Shown here piece by piece: positions 3,375-61,382 of a stretch of DNA of 64,000 nt. Origin of the DNA: a virus; IMG/VR virus record IMGVR_UViG_3300020190_000012, positions 1 to 64,000 of that record; one strand, 5' to 3'. The position numbers and the translations under genes were made by a program. The notes under the pieces are model-generated. The model was not told the DNA's origin. It worked only from the letters and a program-made list of their open reading frames with translations, and did no database searches. Positions within the stretch are counted from its first letter, which is position 1, and each line of letters opens with the position of its first letter.

Positions 3375-4612
3375 GCCTTCCTCCAGTAAGAAGCATCACC
3401 GAAGGCGTTCTTTCTATCCTTCGGATCTGAAAATCCTCTGTAGGAAGGCAGGGGACTTTCATCTTCTGTCCTTATATTGTCTCCAAGACCAGCAAAATCT
3501 ATGCCCTCAGAAACAAGATCAAATCCAGTAAGAGATATATTTACGCATTCGTTTGGAACACTCGGATAAAAAGCAGCAATACCATCAGTAGCAAGAACTC
3601 CATCGGATATCAGTGGTTCAAATTCTGCTTTGTAAATTCCAGCGTCGGCATCTTCAGCAGACATAATCGAAGAGAACTTTTTGACACCTCGGGTTACCAT
3701 GTGAGCCATAATCCTGTCATTATCTGATGCGGCACCCAAAGCCCCTATAGAGCCAAGTTGTATAAGTCTCTTGACGCGGTCAGGCTGAGAAAACTTGAAT
3801 CTGACCACCAACTTTTCTATTTCTTTTTCTTCACCGACCTCAAGAGCATCTATGTCGTCCGGAGTAGCTGCCTTGCCAGATGGCATCAAAAGAATTTGTG
3901 AAGAAATAACGGGGTACCCATTAAACCTAGGAGGATCTACTTCTAGTGTTTCAGCATCATCTTCAGATCCAGGGATCTTTACTTTGATGCTTACCGAGTA
4001 TGAAGGTGGTCGATAGTTGGCCAACACATTGAGAGTCATGGGTTGACTTCGCCCAAAAAATGTCAGTACTTCTGCAAAAACCTGCTTTTCACCAGATGAT
4101 GGGCTGAGAACCCAAGGAACCAAAAATTCATCCTTGGCGACAAAAATAGGCCTGAATGCAGAAGCAAGATTGTTGTTTGTTATGGCGGCTTTTTGACCAA
4201 CCGCTATCCAGTCAGAGAATGCGACATCATTCTCATTCTTAAGCCTCACTGCATATGTGCCAGGAGCTCCTATGATGTTGAGCATTATCATACAATCTTC
4301 AACCTCTGCCACAAAACCGTCTTCACCACTCGTGTCTATGAGTCTTGAAATATAATCCTTAGAAACACGCATCTTAAGAAATTCAGAGTCAGAACTTGGA
4401 GCCAAGGAAGAATTGAGAACATCTGTCATTCTACACTGGCTAAAGGAAGACTGAGATTCAGGCACCACTGGAACAGACTTACATGCAGAAGAAGAAATGA
4501 CGCAATCAAGACCGGAGCCATTCATCACGAACGATGTCAAGCCCCCCGTCCAGTCGGAGACTGATCCAAGAGAAAAAGATTCTGGTCTAATTGGCGTTGG
4601 CATGGTTGTCAA
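3371..4612 (-). CDS. Tail-tip structural protein, function unknown
   Basis: 413 residues if translation starts at the TTG at 4612, which overlaps the stop of the giant fibre gene (TTGA). An ATG nine bases downstream (4603) is an equally possible start, and neither has a clear ribosome site. The protein is acidic and beta-rich, with segments such as YSVSIKVKIPGSEDD and TYAVRLKNENDVAFS that look like Ig-type strands. No catalytic motif or membrane segment is seen. The 3' end overlaps the FN3-like fibre gene by four bases. Its position within the fibre block makes a virion role very likely; a specific family was not recognised. Confidence 0.7.
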   Translation of the reverse strand: MTTMPTPIRPESFSLGSVSDWTGGLTSFVMNGSGLDCVISSSACKSVPVVPESQSSFSQCRMTDVLNSSLAPSSDSEFLKMRVSKDYISRLIDTSGEDGFVAEVEDCMIMLNIIGAPGTYAVRLKNENDVAFSDWIAVGQKAAITNNNLASAFRPIFVAKDEFLVPWVLSPSSGEKQVFAEVLTFFGRSQPMTLNVLANYRPPSYSVSIKVKIPGSEDDAETLEVDPPRFNGYPVISSQILLMPSGKAATPDDIDALEVGEEKEIEKLVVRFKFSQPDRVKRLIQLGSIGALGAASDNDRIMAHMVTRGVKKFSSIMSAEDADAGIYKAEFEPLISDGVLATDGIAAFYPSVPNECVNISLTGFDLVSEGIDFAGLGDNIRTEDESPLPSYRGFSDPKDRKNAFGDASYWRKA

Positions 4613-7600
4613 GAATCATATAAAGGCCTAGAGCCACCCTCGCCGTCAACAGAAGACCACCTTACAGAAGACGAATCGTAGGTCGCGAATCTACACTCCG
4701 AACGGAAACCTGAGGGGTCATCTACACTATATGAACTTCCTGCCCTTCCATCCTGCCAAGATATATAGAATAAACCAAAATCAGAGCCAGCAACACTCGG
4801 TGTTTTTGCGTCAGAATGGATAGAAGACAAGTATGATATTCTGCCGTCAACCCCCGACCAACTGATAGATCTCGAGAGATACGAAGACGGATCGCACATT
4901 ATCTCAGCATCACCTGAATCAAGTTGTTCAGTGACTCCTCCGATTTCTGCTTCAACAGATACATAGTACCTGGTGTGAGGCAATATAGAAAGTCTCTGCA
5001 ATTCGGAAACGCTTGTTGAGCCAACTGTTGAAGAAGCTGAAGACATGTCGGCAAAAGCAGATTGGACACTCGAAGACGGGGAAACTCTAGGTATGAAACT
5101 GGCTGATATGGTGTTGCCTGGATAGCACACGACGCCACCAACGGGGAACGATCCTCTGCCTGCGTCCCAATAGGTAGGATAATTTAAAGAATCATACACA
5201 GCGATTGGGTTTTGCTTTTCAGCATCAGTGAATATTTTTGCCCTGAAATGAACCAGTTTGTTTTCATTAGTCCTATTTGTGTAAGAGGCTGGAACAGAAC
5301 ATCTTTGCTGCGTGGCAAACGGACAGAATATGTAACCGTTCTTTTCTATAGACTGAGCTTGACCTGCAGCAGTTATAACCCTTATTTGGGTGTACATGGA
5401 CCCAGATTTCTTTTTTACTCTGAAATCTATGGTGCGAAGATTTGCGCTGAGAGTGATGTATTCGCCATCAGTAAATCTTATAGCCCTTGATCCAGCAGAC
5501 TCCCATGACGTACCAAGCAGACCAATAACCCCATCGGTAGCAGCCAAGTCTGAAGGAGTGGCTACTATTGCAACTATCGGCGCGGAGAATGTTATTGTCG
5601 ACTGAACAAATTCTTCCACATCTATCGTGTTCCCATTATAACTGACCTGTGCAGGTATATGTATTACAAAAGATCTGTATTGAGAACCAGATGTAAACCC
5701 TGCGATAGAAGTAACGCCAGATGGCAGTGAAAGGTTAGATGTGATCTCCCCGTTGATGAGACTTATGTAGTCTGAAGGTTGCCTGCTTGGGAACGACACG
5801 GGAGCAGAGCCGGCGCTTTCCTGCACAACGACAAGCCTGATGCTTGCAGCTGTCACTGTGGGAGTCAACCCGATGAGAACTTCTCGCAGATTTGGCCATG
5901 TTTCTGCATCTGAAGAATCTAGTTGCTCCACATTTGGGCCAGATTTTTGGATTATGATGCCAACAGACTCCTGCGAGGTTGCAGAAACCATTGGCTGCAA
6001 CTCAAGCTCCCATCTGATTACGCCCTGATTTTTTATATCTTGCGGTATTGCATCAAACTGAATTTCGTAATCATTAGATGCATCGAGCGCCTGGCCTTCA
6101 GAACTCAATGTGTTTCCATTCAAAAGCCAGCCATTAGGATTTTGCGTTGATTCTGATTGATATAAAAGTTGCGAGCCGTCCTCAAGGTAGAAATTAACGA
6201 CAAACTTGAATGTTGATGTCTGTGTTGGTCTAACTGTAGCAAAAACCCCACACCTAAAAAACCTGGTTGGTAAATATGGATCGTAAGGATCTGCATCAAA
6301 AGTTCTTATGAAACCAATCGCCCTGTCTAGCAGGCAACTGTCAGATACATCTGGATCTTTACTGCTGCTAACCGATGCTGCTATTCTTGAATGATTGCCA
6401 TTCCTTTCCTGCCAAGCAACAAGCAGGCGACCATCACCATCGGCAGAAATCGACGGAACGTTCGACACACGATCATGCCTAGATATGGTCTGCGAAACCT
6501 TCATAGCTTCATCCCAGTCTCTCATCGAACATACATTTATCTGCCATGTGCCTGTTTCGTTACTTTCATAGGCAACGTGTAATTTTGCCAACTTGTCAAC
6601 AACAATTGCTGGGTCACGCTGAATACCCGCTCCTTGCCCAATCCTAGATACCGACAGACCACCTGTTGTGAAAGCACTACCAAACTGACACACAGAGGGA
6701 AGCGCAAATCCATACATTTCATCGACGCTCTGAAGCGTAAACTCATCATTAGAATATTCAGAAGCAACTGCAGATACATGCTCTATGACGATGTTGCTTC
6801 TGAATGGATCTTTGTATGTATCCACAATAAGGTCATTTATCTCTGCAGTTTCATCAGGGTTCTTCTGATATTTCAAAACTCGTCTCGACAAGTTAGGAGT
6901 TGAAAGGTAAACACGAAAAGGCCCTTGAAAGCAAACTATTGCGGTCGAACCTGCAACATCCCCTTCAGATTCGCCGCCCTGAATTAGCAAACCTTCAGAA
7001 TCAATAACTTTCAAATCTTCAGATGCAAGATAAGATATGGCAATACATTTTGCGTCCGCAATATCAACATCCGAACTGACTGCATGGTGATCTGACCGCA
7101 GATATAATCCTGAGCCTAGCGCCAAGAATGTCCCTGATGGCAGCGATAATGAGAAGCCCCAACTGACAAGTTGTCCGTCTTCCCTGAGAGCTACACAATA
7201 ATTACTGCCGCAACTCACCGCAACAAATCTACCAGAAGGTAGCGAAGAAAGACCAAACCCGCCAATGGGTTCTTCTCCCAAAAATACAAGGCTACCAGTA
7301 CCATCCACGCATATGGCAAAAGTAGAGCCTACGGAAATATCTCTCCACGAAGATCCTAGTGATGTAAGATCTGACTGAAAAGCTTCAACCACTGCGTTCT
7401 CAAGCTCAGTATTAGGTTCTCCATCTTCATCAGGCTGCGCCAACCTAACAAATCCCTTCAATATGCCTGAATCTGAAATCATCAACATGATCAGTATCGT
7501 ATTAACACCATCATAATAACTATCAGCAGAATTGGTCACCAATGCAAGACAGCCATTTCCTAGTTCAGATTTAAAGAAATCTATCAATTCACCCGAAGAA

Positions 7601-45232: not shown

Positions 45233-45718
45233 ATGATTCTTAGCCAAACAGGGTATAGTTATCAAATCAGAGGCCTTGGCGGACTTGGAAAGCTCAGATT
45301 GAGCGTTGGGTTATCGAACACATGCAGACTAGAACCATTGTGCACAGATACCACGCCTGACGGATATTCTTACATATCACTAGGGGGGTTCAGAATAGGG
45401 ACATCAACCTACGGACAAGGAAGGGCAATGTGGGTGTATCGTCCAGAAGAGATGTCTTTAGATAATGTCTATGAAACAGTGTGGAATGGACTAAAATTTG
45501 AAGTTGCAACAAACGCTAATAATAAATCTTTTTGCTCCTATACGATATCTTACAGTTCAGAAACGCCCACGTCTAATAATATGATCAGAATAGGAGGGGG
45601 CAACATATCTGTCGATGCTTCAGGAAGAGTTTTGTTCGCAGATCAAGAAGGAAGTCAAGGACGACCACGAGAATTCAAAGAGGCGGTCATAGGTTCTATG
45701 ACTAATAACGCTAGGTAG
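45233..45718 (+). CDS. Plus-strand virion-type paralogue A, C-terminus lost by a one-base frameshift
   Basis: 161 residues; the ATG at 45233 has GGAGAG eight bases upstream. It is clearly related to the next gene across about 145 residues (NTCRLEPLCTDTTPDGYSYI, SLGGFRIGTSTYG, LKFEVATNANNKSFCSYTIS, WNGLKF). After the shared IGS motif the zero frame ends at TAG 45716, but reading one base further (+1) from 45708 gives TLGRFDDMWAVSLYSH, which aligns with TLGRFGNYWGIAIYSR of the next gene and runs on to TGA at 45780. So one base is extra near 45705-45708: a mutation, a sequence error or a programmed +1 shift. Function unknown; beta-rich, possibly a head fibre or surface protein. Confidence 0.75.
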   Translation: MILSQTGYSYQIRGLGGLGKLRLSVGLSNTCRLEPLCTDTTPDGYSYISLGGFRIGTSTYGQGRAMWVYRPEEMSLDNVYETVWNGLKFEVATNANNKSFCSYTISYSSETPTSNNMIRIGGGNISVDASGRVLFADQEGSQGRPREFKEAVIGSMTNNAR

Positions 45719-45798
45719 ATTTGACGATATGTGGGCAGTATCTCTCTATTCTCACTCTATCCTGTCCGAAGGCGAATGGTGAGTGGAAAAAATTAACA

Positions 45799-46758
45799 AT
45801 GGAAATCACAAATACTGGATACACTTCTGAAGAAAAAAACATTGGGGGTGCTGGGAAGTTACTTATTGATATTGGAACCACAGGCACCTGCAGGCTAGAA
45901 CCAGTCTCAACAATATATACACCAGATGGAAATTCTTACATATCTTTAGGTGGGTTTCAAATAGGCACGGCTACTTTTGGATCAGACAGAGCACTGTGGG
46001 TGTTCACTCCAAACATGTCTACAAACAATTTAGAAGAGACACACTGGCGTGGTCTCAAGTTTGAAATAGTGTCAGATACAAATTACAAAGCACTTTGTTC
46101 ATACAATATATCATACTCTAGGGAGAACGATACAACTAATAATTATGTGTGGATCGGAGGTGGCAGGATAAGCATCGACATATTAGGCAGAATCCTGACG
46201 GTGAACAAGGGCATCCCAGAAGAGACTAAAGAAGCAATGATTGGGTCTAAAAGGGTCACCTTGGGTAGGTTCGGCAATTATTGGGGTATAGCAATCTATT
46301 CTCGTTTCACATCATGCGCCCAGAGCACAATAAATCCTCAACTGGCAAATAGTATTATTCTGCAGAACTCATCATCATACACAAGAACAGTTTTGACAAC
46401 AACATTTGATCCACTAGTTCCATGCCCTGACGGGATACAAATTTGGCTGCAAAATACAAGCGATACCGCCACGAACCAAATATATTTTGAGGTCAGTACC
46501 AATGGAGGAACAACGTGGACGGATATAGTTCCAGACATTTCGAGCCCGAGCGGGTCGACAGTGACAATTTTGCCAGATAAGGAATTTGGAACGGATATAC
46601 TACTTACAGTCAGCCCTTGGTCAGAATTTTTTGAAGGTTCACCTAAATTTAACGAGAATTGGGGACAAGAAGTTCCAACCACACATATATTTACTGTGAA
46701 AAACATTAGCGACAATTCCGCCATCCAAACAATAACCGTTAACATAGACAGCGTCTGA
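45799..46758 (+). CDS. Plus-strand virion-type paralogue B with an extra C-terminal Ig-like domain
   Basis: 319 residues from the ATG at 45799 (MEITNTGYTSEEKNIGGAG), which matches the start of paralogue A; an upstream TTG only extends the frame. Residues 1-150 repeat the domain of paralogue A (TCRLEPVSTIYTPDGNSYIS, LGGFQIGTATFGSDRALWVF). After TLGRFGNYWG a second, Ser/Thr-rich beta domain follows (IYFEVSTNGGTTWTDIVPD, HIFTVKNISDNSAIQTITV), with an Ig-like look. No ribosome site is strong. No recognised family. Placement opposite to all other genes and beside the major capsid gene suggests an added surface or head-fibre protein under its own control. Confidence 0.75.
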   Translation: MEITNTGYTSEEKNIGGAGKLLIDIGTTGTCRLEPVSTIYTPDGNSYISLGGFQIGTATFGSDRALWVFTPNMSTNNLEETHWRGLKFEIVSDTNYKALCSYNISYSRENDTTNNYVWIGGGRISIDILGRILTVNKGIPEETKEAMIGSKRVTLGRFGNYWGIAIYSRFTSCAQSTINPQLANSIILQNSSSYTRTVLTTTFDPLVPCPDGIQIWLQNTSDTATNQIYFEVSTNGGTTWTDIVPDISSPSGSTVTILPDKEFGTDILLTVSPWSEFFEGSPKFNENWGQEVPTTHIFTVKNISDNSAIQTITVNIDSV

Positions 46759-46833: not shown

Positions 46834-47703
46834 TCAGGTGGTTGTAGCCTCCACGGTGATGACGGACACAGCGTAGTCGTTCATGACCACGATGCCGACT
46901 TCCTCGTAGATCACCCAACCAAGACGCAACTTCTTCGGATCATCAGCGGGAAGGACAGTGATGTCCTGGCGGATGGGGAAGGCGCCCACGGTGTCGGGAC
47001 TTGCAGTAACGATGACCTTGCTGTCATCGAGTTGGCTGGACACATGGATATCAGCCGTCCACAGGTGACCGTAAAGACCAGTGGTGAGGATCTCACGTGT
47101 GGTGGCCTCATCATAGAAGTCTTTACCGAAGCTGCGAACTGCCGAATAGGACTCAGGGTGCATGACCACCTTTGAGGCCACCAGATCGTGGGTCTCAATG
47201 TTCTTGTAGGCAGAGTTCAGAGACGCAGTCTCCAAAGTGCCGCTGTTGGTGATCTCGTTAGATGATGTAGTAGCAGCAATCAGAGCGTTGAAGATATTGC
47301 GATCCTCTTCCTTCTGGATTGCCTCTTTTGCCTTGATCTGGGCACGGTCAACGATGTAGAAGCGACGTGCTTTGATCTCGGACAAACGGATGGTGGGGTG
47401 TGCTGCGATCTCGAATGTGGGGACAAGAACTTCCTCACCCTCGGTGATCTGATCAGGCACTGCACCCTGACGGGCAACGACTACTGCCACGGAGGCAACA
47501 TCGCGCTCGTAGCGGGGAAGAGCGCCCTGTGGGAGCTCGTCCACCATCAGGAGCTTGCGACCGACGGCCTGGTACTCCAGGGAACGCCGAATCGGCTCCA
47601 CCATCGCCTGGGCAAGGGCAACGCGCCCCTCCTCAGTCGACAAGGCCTGTGCGATCACGGCCTCTTTCTCATCGTAAGTCAAACCATCTTTGTTGATGCT
47701 CAT
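46834..47703 (-). CDS. Major capsid protein (HK97 fold)
   Basis: 289 residues from the ATG at 47703; GGA about ten bases upstream. HK97-like pattern: N-terminal helix (TEEGRVALAQAMVEPIRRS), E-loop-like region (VARQGAVPDQITEGEEVLVP, then FEIAAHPTIRLSEIKARRFY), spine helix (DRAQIKAKEAIQKEEDRNI), P-domain helix and strand (THDLVASKVVMHPESYSAV), A-domain (DIHVSSQLDDSKVIVTASP) and a closing beta segment (LGWVIYEEVGIVVMNDYAVS). Followed by a strong terminator and preceded by the decoration gene. Main component of the icosahedral shell. No large pro-region is present, so the scaffold is provided by the protease gene. Confidence 0.93.
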   Translation of the reverse strand: MSINKDGLTYDEKEAVIAQALSTEEGRVALAQAMVEPIRRSLEYQAVGRKLLMVDELPQGALPRYERDVASVAVVVARQGAVPDQITEGEEVLVPTFEIAAHPTIRLSEIKARRFYIVDRAQIKAKEAIQKEEDRNIFNALIAATTSSNEITNSGTLETASLNSAYKNIETHDLVASKVVMHPESYSAVRSFGKDFYDEATTREILTTGLYGHLWTADIHVSSQLDDSKVIVTASPDTVGAFPIRQDITVLPADDPKKLRLGWVIYEEVGIVVMNDYAVSVITVEATTT

Positions 47704-47720
47704 TGTGTTTTTTCCTTTCT

Positions 47721-47759
47721 CCGACACCCCCTGATTCACGCATCAGGGTGGTAAGTCGG
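47721..47759 (-). other. Long imperfect hairpin upstream of the capsid gene
   Basis: Between decoration and capsid genes lies a stem with three paired segments: CCGAC/GTCGG, ACC/GGT and CCCTGAT/ATCAGGG (47721-47735 with 47742-47759), with small bulges and a six-base loop. No T-tract follows. It may stabilise or process the abundant capsid mRNA. Confidence 0.6.
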
Positions 47760-48392: not shown

Positions 48393-48419
48393 CGTCGGTC
48401 TTCACTTGAAGACCCGACG
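48393..48419 (-). other. Hairpin at the end of the protease/scaffold gene
   Basis: CGTCGG.TCTTC / GAAGAC.CGACG pairs over 11 bases with one bulge and an ACTT loop, overlapping the protease stop codon (48402-48404). On the minus strand, GCTTGAGAGGA and then TTTTT follow. The tract is too far for a standard terminator but could be a weak attenuator between the protease and decoration genes. Confidence 0.45.
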
Positions 48420-51400
48420 CAGTACGTTGGTCTCAGTCTGATCTGCCAACTCCACCTGCTGCTGCAGTCGGAACATGGACGAGATCTTGGACTTGAGATC
48501 TCCATACGCATTACGCTCACTCTTCTGCTCGGGGATCACAAAAGCCGTTTCTGACCCTGCCGAGGCCGTCTTCAGGCCCTTGGCGACGACACCCTCTGCG
48601 AACATTGCCTTCTCAAGGTCCACGAGCTGAGCCACCTTGTAGCCCATCAACTCTTTGGCTTTTGCAGGCAGACTGTCTGCAGAGATCATCCCTGCAGCAA
48701 CCATCTTGCCAGCAACCTTGAGAGCCAACTCGCTGGAATCTTCACCAGCCTTCTTCTTTGCATAGCCGCCAACTGGACCGGACTTACCCGATCCAACCTG
48801 GCCGCCTGTCATTAGATTCTGCTTCTCTGCACCGTCCTGACCGCCAACCGGTATGGAAGGCAGGCTCAGACCTGCAGACTCGTTACCCTCTGGAACTTCA
48901 AGTTCTCCCATGCCTTCAAGACCTTCAGAGGTGCCCACGTCGCCAAGATCTTCCTGGTTCTGCACCAACTCGGTCTTGAGACCAAGCTCAGAGGCAAGCT
49001 TGGCCAATGAATCGGAGAATGCAGCCTTCTGGTTATGAAGCTTGCCAGAGGCAGATTTACCTGCTCCTTGGACACCGCCAGTGGCCATATTGCCCTTCTC
49101 TCCCTTGATCTTGTCGCCACTGAAGCTAGGACCATCAACGGGAACCTTGGGCATGTCTGCATCGAAGCCTTCGCCGTGCTCTCTGCTGAGCGGCTTGCCG
49201 CCGTTCTCAACGACCTTTGGCGATTTCAGACCAGCCTTGCCCGTCATGACGGTACCAAGTTCTGGCTGCTTCTGTGCATGACCTATCTCGACAGCCTTCT
49301 CTCCTGCCTCCTTGGTCAGGGCAGATGCAAGACGTGATATGTCAAGTTCCAACTTGCCTACGCCAACAACTCTGCCACGACGGAGGGCCATGGCCTCCTT
49401 CTCAATGTCGAAGGTCTCGTTTGACTTGGATTTGGCATAATTTGGAGCTGTCTTTTCCATGACTGCATCTTTCTCTTCTGTTTCTCCATTCGGATTATCG
49501 TCAGAAGAGTCTTCGTCAGAAGAGTCTTCGTCAGAAGAGTCTTCGTCAGAAGAGTCTTCGTCTTCAACAGTAGGTGACACCTCGACTGACTCTTCTTCAT
49601 CCACGTCTTCGACATCGTCGATGTCGTCGACCTCAACGGAATCTTCAGGCACATCCGTGCCAACATCATCAGACATCTCAGCCCCCATGTCGACCTCTGT
49701 GTCCATATCACTCTCATCTTCACTCCAAGCCTTAGTTAGAGCCTTCTGTATCTGCTCGTCAATCTGCTCAAGAACTTCTGGGGTCACATCGAGAGTGACG
49801 GAAATGGTCTTTTTGTCACCAGATTCAGAATCATCCTCGCCATCGAATGGATCGGATTCTTCCGTTTCATCCTGCTGTGACAAGTCAGTCTCTCCGTCGC
49901 CATCTGCGAGATCATCGGCGAGATACTCCTCGTCCTCTGCATAGGCAGCTTTGATCATCTCACAAGCATTGGAAGCCTGCTTGAGACCCATGCCTTCGCG
50001 GACAAGGTCCTCTACGCACTCGCACATAGGATCCGGCTGCGCCCAAGATGAGGCAACCTTGTCAGCCACGATTGTGCTGTACACATTCGCACCGGCAAGT
50101 TTGCTGCACACGCAATCTGGAAGGCTGTTTCCACGGCAAGGACCGCTGAGCGCCACGGAATCAGCGCCATACCTCCTGGCGAGTTTTTCCACGCACTCAT
50201 TCATTGGGAATTCACCATGCATGGTGAATGCCTTCTTGAATGAGCCAATTGCAGTCTCATCTTCAGAAGCTATCTTGACCTGCTTTACGGCACCCTTGCT
50301 GAGGGCTTCGTTCAAAACTTCGGCCTTCTTGACAACAGACATGCCGTCGAATGTTGCACGATCAACGCCAACTTCATTCAGGGCAGAATTAATAGATGCA
50401 CGCTTACGGGCGCAGCTGCTGCATGATGCCTTCTTAAACTCTGGCACCCATTCCCACTGAGCATACACATCCTTAGGAGAGGTGGTCGACGCGGCAAGAC
50501 GAACCTTGTACATCTGACCAGAGTCCAAGCACATCCATGTTTCGTTGTCAAGTTTGACGGTATTTCTCTCGCCAGTGATTGGGCTCACAGATCCTAGAGC
50601 ACCCTTGCTGGCGATCTTCCTGAGTGTTTCTGGAGTGATGCGGGTGGATGCAGCAACAGGAGGAAGCCCTGGTGCCCCTAGGGGTGGCATGCCGGGTGGC
50701 AGTTCGGCGCCAATCCCGCCAAGACCCTTATCTGGCTCTGCAGGGTTGTCGCCGCCAACATCCTCTTTGTCAATATCTCCGTCAGTGATATTGTCAAGAA
50801 GAGATGCATCTGGAATAACCTTGATGGTGAATCCACTGCCGCAACCCGGGCCTTTGCACTGGCTCTTGCCGCCAGCAACATCAACATCCTGGTTGCCACA
50901 CACGACGCAAACCGCAGCTGGTGGCTTGGCCTTGCCGAGGGTGTCTGTGTCGAGACCAAGAGGGTCTGTTGGCGCCGAAGCGGGAGCTCCAGGCATACCA
51001 GCGGGGGCCCCTGGTGCTGGCGGAGCGCCAGTCAGCGCCTCTGCGCCAGGCATGCCGGGAGGCATGGCACCTGGAACCGCAACACCAGCACCCATGCCTG
51101 CTGGATTTAGGGCGCTGGGCATGGCGCCTCCAACTTGAGCCTTCTTCTCAAGTCGCTCAATCTCCTCAAGCAACTTGGCACGACGAGATATCCTGTCTTC
51201 TCGAGAATCATAAGTCTCAGAAGATGCGACCGCGACCTTTGTCTTGGGGGCTTTCTTCATAGTGCTCTCCACATCGGATGCAAACTTGTGGTATGCCTCT
51301 TCCTCTGCAGAAGTGAGCATTTTTGCCTCCTTGACCACTGCCTCAACAATGCCATTGGCATCGTCGAAATCTATTGACATCGGTACAACATCAACACCAG

Positions 51401-54062
51401 GGAAGCGACTAGAGATCATGCCCTGAGCAAACTTGGTGACCTCCGCTATAAAGTTAATCTTATCTGATGGGTCTGCTGAAATGTCCTCGCCAACAGTGCA
51501 GCAAACCTTGTAGAGACCATCTTCAGGACGGAAGGCCTGGCGGATCGCGTCCTCAAATGAGGCATCCTTTGCCAGGGTTTCAGAAGCATCAGTTGCCATC
51601 TTGGTGGCCTGCTCGACAGCTAGGTCATTGTTCGCGCAGTGGATGAACGCCTGGATGGCATCCTCGGCAGTGACATTCTTGGCATTATCTGCGATGGAGG
51701 CCAAAACAAGGTCGATGGGCTCGGCCATGAGACCTGCAGAAGCACCCTTGGTCATCTCAGAGTTTCTTTCGGCAACTTCACGACGCTGAGACACAGTCCA
51801 AGGGGCTGCATTAATAGAAACCATGAAGGCAGCCTTGGCATGTCTTGATGGCTTGGCTGATATGTACTGCGCAACCTTGGAGATGTCGACGGGATCTAGA
51901 CCATAGATTGCAATGCCATCAGCAATAGAACGGGTTGCAATCTTGACAAGGTCAACTGTACTTGCCTTCTTGGCCATCGATCCGAGTTGAGCCTCTGTAA
52001 TTGCAGTTGGATCGACCCACTTGTGATCCTTACGGAGAATGTCGAGTTGGGCAGACTGAACATGGTCTGTCCAGTCTGCTGGTATCTTGGCAAGGATCTC
52101 GCGGGTTGCATCACCCCACTGACCCTCTGTGATCGTTTCTGGGAAAGAGTTCCAACGTGCCATGAATCCGTTGGATCCGCTAGCTAGTTGCATCTCTGTC
52201 GTGCCTTCGGATGATCCAGACCTCACCTGCGGTGATGCACTAGACACATCTTTGAACGCAGGCTTGGATGCACCAAGACGGCTGTCTGACTCGATGATTT
52301 CGGTGTACTCCGCACCGGTACGTGCGCCCATGCCATTGCCTTCGACAAACTGCCCTTCGATTATGGTGGAAGGAGAGTTGTCGGTGCGGTTTGAAGCTGT
52401 TTTAACGGTGCGGTTGTTAATGTCCAATTCAGGCTCCTTACTAGAGTTGATGTTTTCTTGTTTTTCAAGGGATGCAAGGATGATGAGGGCTGCGCCTTCT
52501 GGATCTTCAGCGATTGCACTCCTCAAGTTATGAGGAAACGCGTCTGCAGATGATGCTCTGACGACACGACCGTCAACAACTTCTGTTATAAACGATTCGC
52601 CGTCAGAGTCGGCGGATATCACAACAGAACAGTTGGCTGACGCGACCTTTGCAATGATTTGGTTCTGTGCCAAAAAATCCTCCGAGGGGAAATACTCGCC
52701 ATCTTCCACGCGGATGGCAAGTCCCTTGCCTCTAATATTGTTTTTTTTCCAAATCTCCTCCCCAAAAGCTGACCTTGGAATAAAAGTTGGCTTGGTAACC
52801 CTGCCTATGTCGTCACCCACATCCTGAAAAGACGGGGTTCCCAAAGATGGGGGTCTTGGGGAGGGTTGCTGAGGCATAGACATTGGGGCCGCTGTTGCAG
52901 GCGCCATTGCAGATGGGGTGGTTTGTGATATCTTTCCACCATCGACAGGCGATGCTGGTGCCGATGTCCCCCTTGCCATCTGTTCAGAAGATGGAGATGG
53001 CAACTGTGCATAACCCATTTCTATAAGTTCATCTGTGGTTTTTTGCACATTCGACATGACCTTAACAAGATCGCTGACATATTCCATAGAAACTGCCTGT
53101 TTTTGTGCCATCATGGACCTGGCAACACGCTCAAGCAGGTTCATTGCTTCATTCAACTCTCCAATTTCTTGTCGACCTGCCACTTTTTTCATTCCGCAAA
53201 CCCCGTCCTTGCAGAATGATTCCTCTGCCACCTTGCTAAACCCCTCGTTTACAGCCCTGACCCTCTCAACAAGGCTAGCAATCTTTTTGCGGACGCCTTC
53301 GGGGTTGAGTATTTCTTGCACGAGGCAATCATGGCATGCTGGATTGACCACAAAACTATCTTCGATAAATTTGACACCAAAATTGTGTTCAAAAATTTGT
53401 TGATCTTTATGTGTGTGGATCTTCTTTTCGCCCTTTTTGCAACCGCAAACTGGACAGGGCTCGTCGCCAGCATTGGGAGACTCATGATACTTACAGACAT
53501 GATCGCCATTGAAGCGCTTCTTCTTGCGCTCTTTGATATGTGAGCAAAATTCTTTTGCAGTTGCAGCTCTGTGATGGCATATGCTGCAGCATGAGTACTG
53601 TACTTGACAGCCCATGGATGTGCCGTTCACGTATCCCTGCTCTATGCCCCTAGCAAGCCTAGGGAAGGCCACGCGGTCAACCATGTTAATTGTATATATA
53701 CCGCCAGTGGAATCGTCGTACCATGCGTGTACAACCTTGCCCCTTGCCTTCTCGATGTCGTCATTTTGGTGGTTGACAAAGACCGGAACCCCGATGAACG
53801 TTTTGGCGGCACGCTTTAACTCAGTCTCACTGAACCAGTCGCCGTTGTCATTGACCTCATTCTTCTTTATTGCAAATACCTTAACAAATAAATGATCGGG
53901 GTGTTCCTTGACGGCTGCAGTTATGTCGAATCCGTTCAGGTCAGTACCAACCTTGGCCGCCTGTTTCTGCAGTGCTTCCGTGTTAAACTCATCCCAATCC
54001 TCGGGAACATTAAGAGCAGTAACCTGCCTCGACCCTGAAATGGAAAACTTGCTTGGAATCAT
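48402..54062 (-). CDS. Prohead protease fused to a very long scaffold-like region
   Basis: 1886 residues. The ATG at 54062 overlaps the next stop. Residues 55-250 form the protease: VPVFVNHQNDDIEKARGKVV with His98, GIYTINMVDRVAFPRLARGI, and VNGTSMGCQVQYS with Ser149, the usual His-Ser pair of HK97/U35-type prohead proteases. A Cys/His-rich cluster follows (CCSICHH, CHHRAAT, CPVCGC, CHDC), likely binding zinc. Then helical scaffold-like sequence, a Gly/Pro/Ala-rich stretch (about 985-1045), a zinc ribbon near 1052 (CVVCGNQ), an acidic region (about 1370-1530) and a helical end. The protease would cut the scaffold from inside the prohead. Its length is many times that of usual fusions. Confidence 0.88.
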   Translation of the reverse strand: MIPSKFSISGSRQVTALNVPEDWDEFNTEALQKQAAKVGTDLNGFDITAAVKEHPDHLFVKVFAIKKNEVNDNGDWFSETELKRAAKTFIGVPVFVNHQNDDIEKARGKVVHAWYDDSTGGIYTINMVDRVAFPRLARGIEQGYVNGTSMGCQVQYSCCSICHHRAATAKEFCSHIKERKKKRFNGDHVCKYHESPNAGDEPCPVCGCKKGEKKIHTHKDQQIFEHNFGVKFIEDSFVVNPACHDCLVQEILNPEGVRKKIASLVERVRAVNEGFSKVAEESFCKDGVCGMKKVAGRQEIGELNEAMNLLERVARSMMAQKQAVSMEYVSDLVKVMSNVQKTTDELIEMGYAQLPSPSSEQMARGTSAPASPVDGGKISQTTPSAMAPATAAPMSMPQQPSPRPPSLGTPSFQDVGDDIGRVTKPTFIPRSAFGEEIWKKNNIRGKGLAIRVEDGEYFPSEDFLAQNQIIAKVASANCSVVISADSDGESFITEVVDGRVVRASSADAFPHNLRSAIAEDPEGAALIILASLEKQENINSSKEPELDINNRTVKTASNRTDNSPSTIIEGQFVEGNGMGARTGAEYTEIIESDSRLGASKPAFKDVSSASPQVRSGSSEGTTEMQLASGSNGFMARWNSFPETITEGQWGDATREILAKIPADWTDHVQSAQLDILRKDHKWVDPTAITEAQLGSMAKKASTVDLVKIATRSIADGIAIYGLDPVDISKVAQYISAKPSRHAKAAFMVSINAAPWTVSQRREVAERNSEMTKGASAGLMAEPIDLVLASIADNAKNVTAEDAIQAFIHCANNDLAVEQATKMATDASETLAKDASFEDAIRQAFRPEDGLYKVCCTVGEDISADPSDKINFIAEVTKFAQGMISSRFPGVDVVPMSIDFDDANGIVEAVVKEAKMLTSAEEEAYHKFASDVESTMKKAPKTKVAVASSETYDSREDRISRRAKLLEEIERLEKKAQVGGAMPSALNPAGMGAGVAVPGAMPPGMPGAEALTGAPPAPGAPAGMPGAPASAPTDPLGLDTDTLGKAKPPAAVCVVCGNQDVDVAGGKSQCKGPGCGSGFTIKVIPDASLLDNITDGDIDKEDVGGDNPAEPDKGLGGIGAELPPGMPPLGAPGLPPVAASTRITPETLRKIASKGALGSVSPITGERNTVKLDNETWMCLDSGQMYKVRLAASTTSPKDVYAQWEWVPEFKKASCSSCARKRASINSALNEVGVDRATFDGMSVVKKAEVLNEALSKGAVKQVKIASEDETAIGSFKKAFTMHGEFPMNECVEKLARRYGADSVALSGPCRGNSLPDCVCSKLAGANVYSTIVADKVASSWAQPDPMCECVEDLVREGMGLKQASNACEMIKAAYAEDEEYLADDLADGDGETDLSQQDETEESDPFDGEDDSESGDKKTISVTLDVTPEVLEQIDEQIQKALTKAWSEDESDMDTEVDMGAEMSDDVGTDVPEDSVEVDDIDDVEDVDEEESVEVSPTVEDEDSSDEDSSDEDSSDEDSSDDNPNGETEEKDAVMEKTAPNYAKSKSNETFDIEKEAMALRRGRVVGVGKLELDISRLASALTKEAGEKAVEIGHAQKQPELGTVMTGKAGLKSPKVVENGGKPLSREHGEGFDADMPKVPVDGPSFSGDKIKGEKGNMATGGVQGAGKSASGKLHNQKAAFSDSLAKLASELGLKTELVQNQEDLGDVGTSEGLEGMGELEVPEGNESAGLSLPSIPVGGQDGAEKQNLMTGGQVGSGKSGPVGGYAKKKAGEDSSELALKVAGKMVAAGMISADSLPAKAKELMGYKVAQLVDLEKAMFAEGVVAKGLKTASAGSETAFVIPEQKSERNAYGDLKSKISSMFRLQQQVELADQTETNVLRRVFK
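49501..49560 (-). repeat. Tandem 15-bp repeat encoding an acidic Ser/Asp motif
   Basis: Four exact copies of TCAGAAGAGTCTTCG in a row (49501-49560), translated on the minus strand as DEDSS units. It sits within the acidic region of the protease/scaffold gene, near residues 1501-1521. Identical copies point to replication slippage. Confidence 0.9.
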
Positions 54063-54472
54063 GCCCTCACTGTCCTCGGGATTCTTACATTAGCCAAATG
54101 GGTCAATGTATAGTTGAACTGATTCTTAGGATATGGTATTCTGTATTTATCTGAAAGGAAAGACAGGGCCGAAGCAATGTTAGTAAAATATTTTCCATAC
54201 GGGCTGTAGACTTTAGACTCAAATTTCATCCAGTTGGATGGCAACTTTTTGATACCTGCAAAAAATGCCTTCTTGAGATCTTTGGTTCTCGCTGGCGAGC
54301 ATACAACATAATAGTCTGAGTTGGTGGTGTAGTCGTGGCCTTGCCATCTGTGGTATGCCCCAGAACCAATTTCCCTCTCGTATCTCTTCTTGAGAGGCTC
54401 GGTACGCTCAGTGTATACCTCTTCCCAATTGATGTTACGGTCACGTATCCTGCGTGCTGAAATCTTCAGCAT
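54059..54472 (-). CDS. Small hypothetical protein between portal and protease
   Basis: 137 residues from the ATG at 54472 (MLKISARRIRDRNINWEEVY), with AGGTG eight bases upstream; it overlaps the portal gene by 32 bases. The longer frame starting at 54535 lies fully within the portal. Basic, helical start, then mixed alpha/beta (SDYYVVCSPARTKDLKKAF, GKYFTNIASALSFLSDKYR). No recognised motif. In many phages a small head protein is at this position; nothing specific can be claimed. Confidence 0.65.
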   Translation of the reverse strand: MLKISARRIRDRNINWEEVYTERTEPLKKRYEREIGSGAYHRWQGHDYTTNSDYYVVCSPARTKDLKKAFFAGIKKLPSNWMKFESKVYSPYGKYFTNIASALSFLSDKYRIPYPKNQFNYTLTHLANVRIPRTVRA

Positions 54473-56654
54473 GGGATGCACCTGTTGGTAAGAAAATGTC
54501 GGCCACATCTGTGGAAATGACACGAGGCTCTCCATCAGATAAAGATGCCGAAGTTTTGCCCAAAATCCTCCGCTCTTCTATCGCTTCTCTAATATTTGAC
54601 ATCACAACTTGAGCAACTTCGTCCACCCGACTGTTGAGGGCACCCTCTTTTATCCTTATAACCCGCCAACCAAGTTGTGCAAGTTTCATGTCTCTTGCTC
54701 GGTCACGCTCAATGGCTTCGGGATCTGAATGCCACATTTCTCCATCTGCCTCCACATCAACTCCGATTTGAGGATATGCAAAATCTAGAAGGAATGGCTG
54801 TCTCTGACCTGGCATGTACTGCTGGAATTGTGCAAAAAGTGGGTACGGAACCGCAAGTTGGTTGAGGATCGATGCCAACTTCTGCTCCGGCTTTGTCAAA
54901 AATATCTTCGTAGGCTGTGGAGGTTTGGGCATATCTTTTGCCTTTGGCCCCTTGCCCTTCTTAAATATCTTTCCTGACAAAATGGATGCGGCTGCCGCCA
55001 TGGGCGGAGCACCAGGGTTGCCACCCATGGCAGGAATTGCCGATGGAGCACCACCAGGCGGAGACATCCCCAAATCCATCGGCGGTGCACCTCCGCCCAT
55101 GGGGGCTGGAGCAGGCGGCGCACCACCACCAGCACCTCCCAATCCGCCCATTATGCTTCCTAGGTCTCCGATTCCGCCGCCGCCACCGCCGCCACCAGGC
55201 TGTCCGCCAAGAACCTGACCTCCAGTACCCGCCATAACCTGTTCTTCCCTGATGCGTGCAACCTCAATATCAAAGTCTATATCAAATGTATCAAGCAACT
55301 TTTGCCTGCTGATAACCTGCTTGTCATACAACTGAATAATCTTGTTCAACGATTCAGAGTTGTCACGAAGACGAAGATCGTTCCATTTTATTCTTGGATA
55401 CAGCCATACAGTTTCGTTCAACTGCTTCGATTTTACTGTGTCAACAAAACCCTGCATTTGAGCAACGGGTAAGAATATGTTTCTTTCTGCCCACTGTGCC
55501 AACTCCATACGCCAGGTTTCAAGTCTTCTGATGAGGGTCTCCACGCCAACAGCAGCACCAGAATAAGCCTGCATCTCTCCGTTGAGCAAGGTCTGGTTGA
55601 GCATTAGACCGTCAAGCATCTCCTTGCCGACATATTCGAGCTGATTGCTTATATCGTGGATTTTGCCAGTTGCACCCTCCCAAGTCATCTCGAATGCATG
55701 GTGAGTAACAATGGTCAAATTTGGATCATTTGCCACTGCAGCAAGTTGAGCCTGCACATCTGCAATATCCATCTCATTTGCAGGGCGCTCGGCAGTGCCA
55801 ACCTTTACTATTCTTATTGGCAATATATGACGCTCTGCCACGATCCAGTTCGCTGTCATCAACTTGGTTTTGTATGCAATCGTCATGAAGAGTCGACGCA
55901 GCAATGACTCTCCATAAGTTCCATAAGGACTCCCCTTATGTCGCAAATGACTCACGCAGCGCGGACTAAGAGGTATGGCCTGCCCGGCGGCAACAAGGTC
56001 ACGAACCTGCGGAGATATCTTGTCATAGATATCCTTTGGCTTCTTCTGCTGCACCACTCTGCGTAGATCATCATCTGGCAACATGGCAATTGTTGGGTGG
56101 TCGGCAAGTTGCGTGTTTTGAACCTCAACGAAATCTGGATTGAGGATCATCAGTCTTTTGAATGTTCCGCCCGGATGGTTGCATATCGTGCCGTCAGGAA
56201 GGTTTGTCCTACCTCCGCACACTGGGCAGTCTATTTCCAAAAACACGAAAACATCACCAAGCAAAAAATATTCGTGCGATATCTTTCTGAACCAGTGATC
56301 AAGGTTGAGTTTTTCAACCATGTGCTCAAAATAGTTCAAGACCTTTCGATCTCTGCACTCCAGTTTGAATCCATTCATGGGGAATGTTGCATAGAAATCT
56401 ATACCACCAGCAGCCTTTGGCTCGTTTTCGTAATAGAAACGCGCCCACTGGTACACTTCCTTGCGTCTGCTTGCTATCTGCCAACTCTGCGGAGTGTGCA
56501 GAGGAGAGAAAAACATCGGCTGGGTGAATATGGTGGACACATTCCCACCAACATATTGAGCCGCCTTGGTCAGCGGCAGCGGAACTATAGTTCCGTTTGC
56601 ATATGTCTTGTTGTCCACCATCGATTCACTACTTGCGTTTTTCTTGGTTGCCAT
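54441..56654 (-). CDS. Portal protein fused to a DUF559/Vsr-like nuclease domain
   Basis: 737 residues. ATG at 56654, AGGA ten bases upstream. Residues 30-460 carry portal features: ARFYYENEPKAAGGIDFYAT, YFLLGDVFVFLEIDCPVCG (with a CPVC...C knuckle), SPYGTYGESLLRRLFMTIAY, EMLDGLMLNQTLLNGEMQAY and LRLRDNSESLNKIIQLYD. A Gly/Pro-rich linker follows (GGQPGGGGGGGGIGD and beyond). Residues 588-670 form a PD-(D/E)XK-like domain: KPEQKLASILNQ, FLLDFAYPQIGVDVEADGE with Asp624, Glu635 and Asp637, WHSDPEAIERDRAR, then LGWRVIRI. This is the order of DUF559/Vsr-like endonucleases, with all key residues present. Portal proteins with a nuclease tail are not standard. It may take part in DNA ejection or packaging, or attack host DNA (inference). 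Confidence 0.9.
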   Translation of the reverse strand: MATKKNASSESMVDNKTYANGTIVPLPLTKAAQYVGGNVSTIFTQPMFFSPLHTPQSWQIASRRKEVYQWARFYYENEPKAAGGIDFYATFPMNGFKLECRDRKVLNYFEHMVEKLNLDHWFRKISHEYFLLGDVFVFLEIDCPVCGGRTNLPDGTICNHPGGTFKRLMILNPDFVEVQNTQLADHPTIAMLPDDDLRRVVQQKKPKDIYDKISPQVRDLVAAGQAIPLSPRCVSHLRHKGSPYGTYGESLLRRLFMTIAYKTKLMTANWIVAERHILPIRIVKVGTAERPANEMDIADVQAQLAAVANDPNLTIVTHHAFEMTWEGATGKIHDISNQLEYVGKEMLDGLMLNQTLLNGEMQAYSGAAVGVETLIRRLETWRMELAQWAERNIFLPVAQMQGFVDTVKSKQLNETVWLYPRIKWNDLRLRDNSESLNKIIQLYDKQVISRQKLLDTFDIDFDIEVARIREEQVMAGTGGQVLGGQPGGGGGGGGIGDLGSIMGGLGGAGGGAPPAPAPMGGGAPPMDLGMSPPGGAPSAIPAMGGNPGAPPMAAAASILSGKIFKKGKGPKAKDMPKPPQPTKIFLTKPEQKLASILNQLAVPYPLFAQFQQYMPGQRQPFLLDFAYPQIGVDVEADGEMWHSDPEAIERDRARDMKLAQLGWRVIRIKEGALNSRVDEVAQVVMSNIREAIEERRILGKTSASLSDGEPRVISTDVADIFLPTGASHAEDFSTQDT

Positions 56655-60328: not shown

Positions 60329-61171
60329 TCAAGTAACTACGAATTTACGCGTAAATGTCCTGCTCGGGAAAGAAAATCTGACTATTCTGGTCAATAAATA
60401 ATTTCTAGGCGCTCCAACCGTTGTGTCCCATGAAACAACCACCTGTCTGCGGCTGGCTTCAGAAAAATGCATATCGTGAGGTTCAATCTCCCTTGAAATA
60501 ATTTTGCCGCCCTCTGTCAAATATTCTATAAGCATAGACTGCCTGTTTGCCACAGACCACCTGACTGCATCACCAACTCCTGAAAAATTTGGGACTGCAA
60601 CAGATATAGAAACCTGAGAATCTGCTGCAGACCTGGCTGGATCCGTGACTATTTGGGCTCTATCTGCGGGAACCTCATCTGCCTGAGGAGGCGGGGTCGA
60701 AGCAACATCCTCCCCTTCTGACGATTGTCTGATCTCTGCAAAATCAACACGATCTGGGTCCAAGGACGTCAGTGGCATCTTTTGGGCGAGTTTATAGCTT
60801 CTGTTAAATATGCAGCAGGGTTGGACGCCATCTGTATTGAGATGACACTCATCGCCAACCCTGAATCCATTCTTGGAAAGCCAGCCATCGGGCAACTCAA
60901 CGACCAAACTACACGGCTCAGAAGACGAAACCGATGTCAAATCATGAGGTCTTATCCTGCCAACTGTGACAATTTTACCAAATGGATTTACAAAAGCTAT
61001 GTCCAATGGCAGAAATGTGTTCATACCCCAAAAACTATGTCGCTCTGGCCTGTCAAATACAAAAGCCATGCCATGCCCGTCTTCTAGCTCATGCCTGAAC
61101 ATCAAACCTCTTTCTCTGAGATGTGGCTTATCTGCCAATTCAACCACAACTCGAGAAAATTGGTTATTCAT
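60329..61171 (-). CDS. DUF192 protein with a C-terminal WYL-like domain
   Basis: 280 residues from the ATG at 61171, which overlaps the upstream stop by eight bases. Residues 1-112 are DUF192: VVVELADKPHLRERGLMFRH, MAFVFDRPERHSFWGMNTF, LPLDIAFVNPFGKIV and the closing WLSKNGFRVGDECHL. After a Pro/Ala/Asp linker (113-200) a WYL-like fold occupies 203-270: RWSVANRQSMLIEYLTEGG, ISREIEPHDMHF, VVVSWDTTVGAPRNYLLTRI. WYL domains bind ligands or nucleotides in transcription regulators and defence systems. This pairing in a virion operon is unusual; role unknown. Confidence 0.8.
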   Translation of the reverse strand: MNNQFSRVVVELADKPHLRERGLMFRHELEDGHGMAFVFDRPERHSFWGMNTFLPLDIAFVNPFGKIVTVGRIRPHDLTSVSSSEPCSLVVELPDGWLSKNGFRVGDECHLNTDGVQPCCIFNRSYKLAQKMPLTSLDPDRVDFAEIRQSSEGEDVASTPPPQADEVPADRAQIVTDPARSAADSQVSISVAVPNFSGVGDAVRWSVANRQSMLIEYLTEGGKIISREIEPHDMHFSEASRRQVVVSWDTTVGAPRNYLLTRIVRFSFPSRTFTRKFVVT

Positions 61172-61382
61172 ACTCGGAGACACGAAAGCCCCCACGAACA
61201 AGACGATCTGCGAAGTCCTCGCACTCATTCTCGTCATCAAATTCTAGGCGATATCCAGATCCGTGACGAAAAACATCGGCCCCAACGCCGCGAGCCCGCC
61301 TAAGCGCCTCATCTAGACTCCAGGAGCGCTCAAAAGAACCTGAAGGTCTTGTGGGTCTGTCTTTCAGTATGCAAACTCTCAT
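61164..61382 (-). CDS. Small hypothetical protein
   Basis: 72 residues; the ATG at 61382 overlaps the upstream stop (ATGA). Charged alpha/beta protein (SFERSWSLDEALRRARGVG, YRLEFDDENECEDFADRLV). No family recognised. It overlaps DUF192's start by eight bases. Confidence 0.65.
   Translation of the reverse strand: MRVCILKDRPTRPSGSFERSWSLDEALRRARGVGADVFRHGSGYRLEFDDENECEDFADRLVRGGFRVSEYE

Follow-up and report, generated by a model that had tools for sequence, protein, structure and literature searches.

A portal protein with a predicted Vsr-like nuclease domain in a clade of mostly jumbo, uncultured phages

Nucleases of the EDxHD/Vsr-like type, among them I-Bth0305I, PvuRts1I, Vsr and the DUF559/MTES_1575 families, act in mismatch-repair, intron or defence contexts, and DUF559/MTES_1575 domains occur in Hhe-type anti-phage proteins too. 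The EDxHD homing endonucleases reside in introns, inteins or free mobile genes and carry added DNA-binding modules. Other nucleases work at the portal vertex in packaging or in maturation of the head: in T4, the head-completion protein gp4 is a REase-fold nuclease that packaging requires (PMC7824862), and gp49 is a portal-bound resolvase that clears branched DNA during packaging (PMC9958956). Both are separate proteins of other families. In MuF polymorphic toxins, a protein of the portal vertex ends in an enzyme domain (PMC5576092).

Here we describe a gene in a 64,000-nucleotide stretch of viral DNA (the window; positions 1 to 64,000 of IMG/VR record IMGVR_UViG_3300020190_000012) whose product likewise ends in an enzyme domain. 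Its core is that of the portals of phage G (gp14), LR745208, Tunturi_5, Rctr197k and cluster C mycobacteriophages (PHROG 16240), which differ in having no nuclease domain. The added domain shares the predicted fold and active-site residues of the EDxHD/Vsr-like nucleases. Unlike them, it has no mismatch-repair, intron or defence context; it is a fixed C-terminal domain of a virion structural protein, inherited with it, and, in contrast to gp4 and gp49, lies covalently within the portal.

Architecture and active site of the fusion

The fusion occupies positions 54441–56654 on the minus strand (737 aa plus stop). An earlier note on this DNA had placed a portal gene at these coordinates. The open reading frame does exist there, on the minus strand; the many stops of the plus strand rule out a reading on that strand. 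The portal identity was correct: the product matches Portal_Mu in Pfam (4.3e-8, 33.3 bits; cut-off 23.9) and the PHROG 16240 portal family (2e-40), and Foldseek searches with the full-length model or the core gave portals only among the matches listed (HFTV1, phiCD508, T4 gp20, Mu and lambda). Phage G gp14 is homologous to the window portal core over ~440 residues, with 31% identity.

In the full-length AF2 model the core and the nuclease are folded and the intervening linker is disordered. A disordered N-terminal segment (residues 1–57, 56484..56654; pLDDT < 50), which contains T-K-A-A-Q at residue 30, a motif type enriched in the head module, precedes the portal core (residues ~58–477, 55224..56483), which is delimited by AF2, by Foldseek matches to dodecameric portals and by the gp14 homology. 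The Gly/Pro linker of the earlier note corresponds to a Gly/Pro/Met-rich segment predicted by AF2 to be disordered (residues 478–580, 54915..55223). Toward its end, an Ala-Ala-Ala/Ser element is conserved and a basic stretch of the form K-[IV]-x-K-[KR]-G is found; A[AS][AS] occurs in 44 of 62 distinct linkers (11.4 expected), at a median of 31 aa ahead of the nuclease domain. By eye, no consistent ribosome-binding site marks an internal start ahead of the domain from which it could be expressed separately. The nuclease domain itself (residues 581–700, 54555..54914) is followed by a disordered tail (residues 701–737, 54444..54554; pLDDT < 50). The model is of the monomer, and its portal fold (wing, stem, clip and crown) is supported by whole-fold Foldseek matches; the assembled portal would be a dodecamer and so carry twelve nuclease copies.

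The PD-(D/E)XK-type nuclease fold that the earlier note proposed is borne out by prediction. Modelled alone, the domain reaches a pLDDT of 88.6 and a pTM of 0.80 in AF2, and its best PDB match in Foldseek is the catalytic domain of I-Bth0305I (E 4e-5, TM 0.82 by target length), followed by PvuRts1I, NGO0050 and Vsr (entries 3r3p, 4oq2, 3hrl and 1vsr); TnsA structures scored weakly. The first matches of a profile search agree, with 3r3p at 3.5e-6. In Pfam, the window protein matches DUF559 (5.8e-6, 26.6 bits; cut-off 20.6) and, slightly under the cut-off of 38.2, MTES_1575 (1.4e-8, 35.1 bits). Both families were matched in 41 of 41 intein-free relatives scanned, and Portal_Mu in 36 of these. 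The strict Vsr family, TIGR00632, stayed below threshold (20.9 bits against 97.85), and the Pfam scans of the window protein and the 41 relatives contained no NUMOD domains.

The acidic residues D624, E635 and D637 are present where the earlier note had put them, and relatives keep them: among 59 distinct domains D624 and E635 are found in all and D637 in 57, the other two having Glu. The conserved set is wider than first described, with E590, Q609, D624, E635, G638, H642, D651, R654, D655, G662, W663 and R667 all invariant; E590, H642, D651 and D655 thus join the candidate active site. E590 (54885..54887), an acidic residue in helix 1, is tentatively the counterpart of Vsr E25, and D624 (54783..54785) aligns with the Asp of the Vsr "DF" (D51). 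In the catalytic motif E635-x-D637-G-x-x-W-H642 (54729..54752), D637-G638 aligns with the H-G of Vsr and W641-H642 with its W-H; all these correspondences come from sequence alignment. A helix motif, D651-x-x-R654-D655 (54690..54704), completes the pattern, which suggests a catalytically competent nuclease.

Distribution, origin and selection

Among viral contigs, the window's nuclease domain as query found 18 loci, and the domain alignment 80 of 202. Every locus whose reading frame was not cut by a contig end was a portal–nuclease fusion, and these searches returned no free-standing copy of the domain. Since E[AT]DGxxWH was among the search patterns, a second search used portal-core motifs alone; it yielded 183 contigs, from which we examined 73 new loci. 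The domain is present in 70 of these, and the remaining three run into a contig end ahead of it, so that all 70 uncut loci have it. The 59 distinct domains used for the conservation counts come from this portal-driven set and were not chosen on the domain; because the portal-only search left the result unchanged, an effect of the search pattern can be discarded as the source of the conservation. A single-genome oddity or assembly artefact is likewise ruled out by more than 90 distinct homologous frames in separate contigs. The earlier note knew of no such fusion as a standard feature; we found no description of one in the open-licence literature, yet across one large clade it is standard. Carrier contigs reach 548 kb, so many carriers are jumbo phages. 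All are uncultured. GTDB genomes yielded no relative with the patterns used, and in 50,697 annotated phage records no portal match reached into the nuclease domain.

In the portal-core tree all 41 nuclease carriers fall into a single clade (support 100/99), which needs one change, and the fusion arose once. Outgroup branches are long, and the nearest sister of the clade is uncertain. The domain is absent from the portals of phage G, LR745208, Rctr197k, Tunturi_5 and three actinobacteriophages; a profile search of the same seven genomes outside the portal, with no positive control among those records, detected none elsewhere. Phage-G-like and LR745208-like portals from viral contigs also lack it. 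One phage-G-like portal (L215, frame 3995–7042) has a separate C-terminal extension of ~480 aa with no clear Pfam family.

Core and nuclease have diverged together. Their distances correlate with a Mantel r of 0.87 (0 of 2000 permutations as high), and with 0.90 and 0.91 within two sub-clades, a co-variation that speaks against cassette swapping of the toxin-carrier kind. In five pairs with unsaturated synonymous change, dN/dS of the domain is 0.017–0.083, comparable to that of the core (0.02–0.07), with the linker at 0.06–0.2, which indicates strong purifying selection on the domain.

Large intein-like insertions interrupt 35 of 99 distinct portal genes at about five sites. In three relatives (L140, L153 and L154) one lies directly after the E635 codon and splits the catalytic E-x-D motif. 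Inteins usually persist in conserved sites of needed proteins, and their position here therefore argues that the active site is needed. A portal gene may contain several such insertions, with open frames of up to 1802 aa; relatives with insertions include L046, L047, L049, L053, L054, L059, L061, L062, L140 and L158. The large terminase subunit (TerL) of several relatives has long open frames of 1005–1425 aa that suggest insertions as well.

These results bear on whether the domain is a captured homing endonuclease, selfish or decaying, or a dead domain that merely binds DNA. The closest solved fold is that of a phage-intron homing endonuclease, carrier portal genes are rich in inteins, and Vsr-like folds can lose catalysis, as in RAP domains. 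We nevertheless consider this very improbable, given that the domain sits at the same position in every complete member, has a single origin, is under purifying selection and keeps an invariant active site.

The head module and candidate partners

The gene order is that of tailed phages: terminase, portal, protease, capsid. The minus-strand head module spans 46000–66200 of the record. Upstream of the portal lies a TerL-like gene (64278–66164); TerL was found in 29 of 30 carrier records, and all 31 aligned proteins preserve its D415, D485 and D567. With the terminase nuclease intact, the portal domain is an addition, and its use as a replacement for a lost TerL nuclease is ruled out. On the other side of the portal, also on the minus strand, lie a 1886-aa protein whose N-terminal region resembles head-maturation proteases (48402..54062; PHROG 18299, 3e-14) and the major capsid protein (46834..47739; PHROG 2522, 2.8e-66). 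The module also contains a 303-aa protein that combines DUF192 and WYL domains (60329–61240, minus), and two frames of 161 and 345 aa lie on the plus strand (45233–46758) inside a structural module otherwise on the minus strand.

A small gene of up to 158 aa overlaps the portal end (54059..54535, minus; probable start near 54472) and has no Pfam or NCBIfam match. Genes sharing its KRIKDRGIxWxExYxERT-like motif come after the portal in almost every member of the window's sub-clade, and sub-clade B has none. MuF toxins differ between relatives and have immunity genes. By comparison, the portal described here has one fixed domain that co-diverges with the core and no universal partner gene, the conserved portal-adjacent small gene being confined to the window's sub-clade. 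Small unrelated frames downstream of the portal in several relatives (L023, L025, L046, L047, L053, L150 and L152) share an MK(I/V/L)IKTA(S/Q)Y-like N-terminal leader that may target them to the capsid, as the signal of T4 internal proteins does.

A short motif in the head module may mark sites of the maturation protease. [KR]xA[SQ] occurs 42 times in head-module proteins (8.4 expected), 21 times in the 1886-aa protease-like protein (2.7 expected), and 53 times elsewhere in the same record (34.8 expected). The wider form [KR]xA[SQN] is found 30 times in linkers (6.8 expected) and 17 times in the tails after the domain (3.3 expected), and is enriched in portal N-termini too. The main rival account of the domain builds on this motif: the prohead protease would cut the linker, and the free domain would stay in the head until it left with the DNA on ejection, to harm the host's DNA or defeat a defence as T4 internal proteins do. 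The enrichment in the head module and in the protease-like protein, the motifs flanking the domain and the conserved Ala-rich element ~31 aa ahead of it are all consistent with such release. Cleavage at the motif is putative, however, [KR]xA[SQN] is missing from the linker and tail of the window's portal and of roughly one relative in four, and the domain is constant across the clade, unlike arms-race effectors. Taken as a whole, release together with such a target seems to us unlikely.

The fold also invites comparison with enzymes that read DNA modification. In this scheme the domain would destroy incoming non-phage DNA, whether unmodified host or rival DNA, and methylation would protect that of the phage. 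The modification-dependent PvuRts1I/AbaSI and Vsr share the fold, and the window's phage has a C5 DNA methylase (95926–97983 of its own record, L104:11926–13983, minus), which has a long insert between its two conserved halves. C5 methylases occur, however, in just 2 of 31 carrier records, and N6/N4 methylases in about 12 of 30, being absent from several records of 300–476 kb. The scarcity of C5 methylases leaves a Vsr–Dcm-style pairing unsupported, and we regard a DNA check of this kind as improbable.

Possible roles of a nuclease on the portal

In known portals the C-terminal part forms the crown. The capsid of T4 encloses the stem, wing and crown of its portal (PMC9958956), and a nuclease that follows the crown should by analogy face the head lumen. 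If the domain stays attached, the cutting at packaging that the earlier note suggested would then be confined to the lumenal side. The proposed arrangement is a portal subunit whose Vsr/EDxHD nuclease would be tethered to its C-terminal end by a flexible linker of ~100 residues, so that twelve copies would hang inside the head at the inner mouth of the portal. There they would act on DNA routinely as the head fills or matures, for instance by cutting or trimming DNA held at the portal vertex.

A position inside the head also affects the idea that the domain is the Holliday- or Y-junction nuclease of the packaging motor, in place of gp49- or RuvC-type resolvases. RuvC was found in none of 12 carrier records, compared with a match in phage G and a weak one in LR745208, which weakly favours the idea. 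Other resolvases are rare (endonuclease VII in 1 of 12 carrier records, RusA in 2–3 of 12), and T4 gp49 sets the precedent of acting at the portal (PMC9958956). This sample of 12 records is, however, small and incomplete, novel resolvases would escape such a search, and branches stall outside the head while the portal C-terminus is expected inside. Branch clearing thus appears quite improbable.

We place just short of an even chance on a lumenal nuclease that, as a housekeeping enzyme of the clade beside the terminase nuclease, processes DNA while the head fills or matures. A regular role of this kind is favoured by the lack of domain variation, the intact TerL and the lack of an obligate methylase of the two families tested. 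The evidence, with no domain swapping, co-divergence with the core and no loss in any complete copy examined, leans toward such processing over a weapon against host or rival DNA, which the earlier note had also raised, without being decisive. Several points stand against the processing role. A nuclease exposed to the packaged genome has to be held in check, and nothing that would do so was identified: of the two methylase families tested neither is obligate, and the portal-adjacent small gene is absent in sub-clade B. Sister phages package their genomes without the domain. Finally, protease-type motifs, present in many linkers, could free the domain for a different role. A stronger version, with the portal of this jumbo-phage clade as an essential enzyme whose twelve active lumenal nucleases make an obligatory cut in packaging termination, genome-end maturation or ejection, is possible and on balance doubtful.

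Within the sampled viral contigs, whose records may be incomplete, the fusion is a constant component of the virion in a large clade of mostly jumbo, uncultured phages. Portals are usually seen as passive channels or sensors; a nuclease active site conserved across a clade suggests DNA cutting from the portal itself, and inteins within that active site are a natural sign of needed activity. It raises the question of how a nuclease beside the packaged genome is kept from destroying it. If true, obligatory cutting by the portal would be a step that no other tailed phages are known to have, and the fusion provides a defined, testable way into DNA processing in jumbo phages, a common group of which most members are uncultured.
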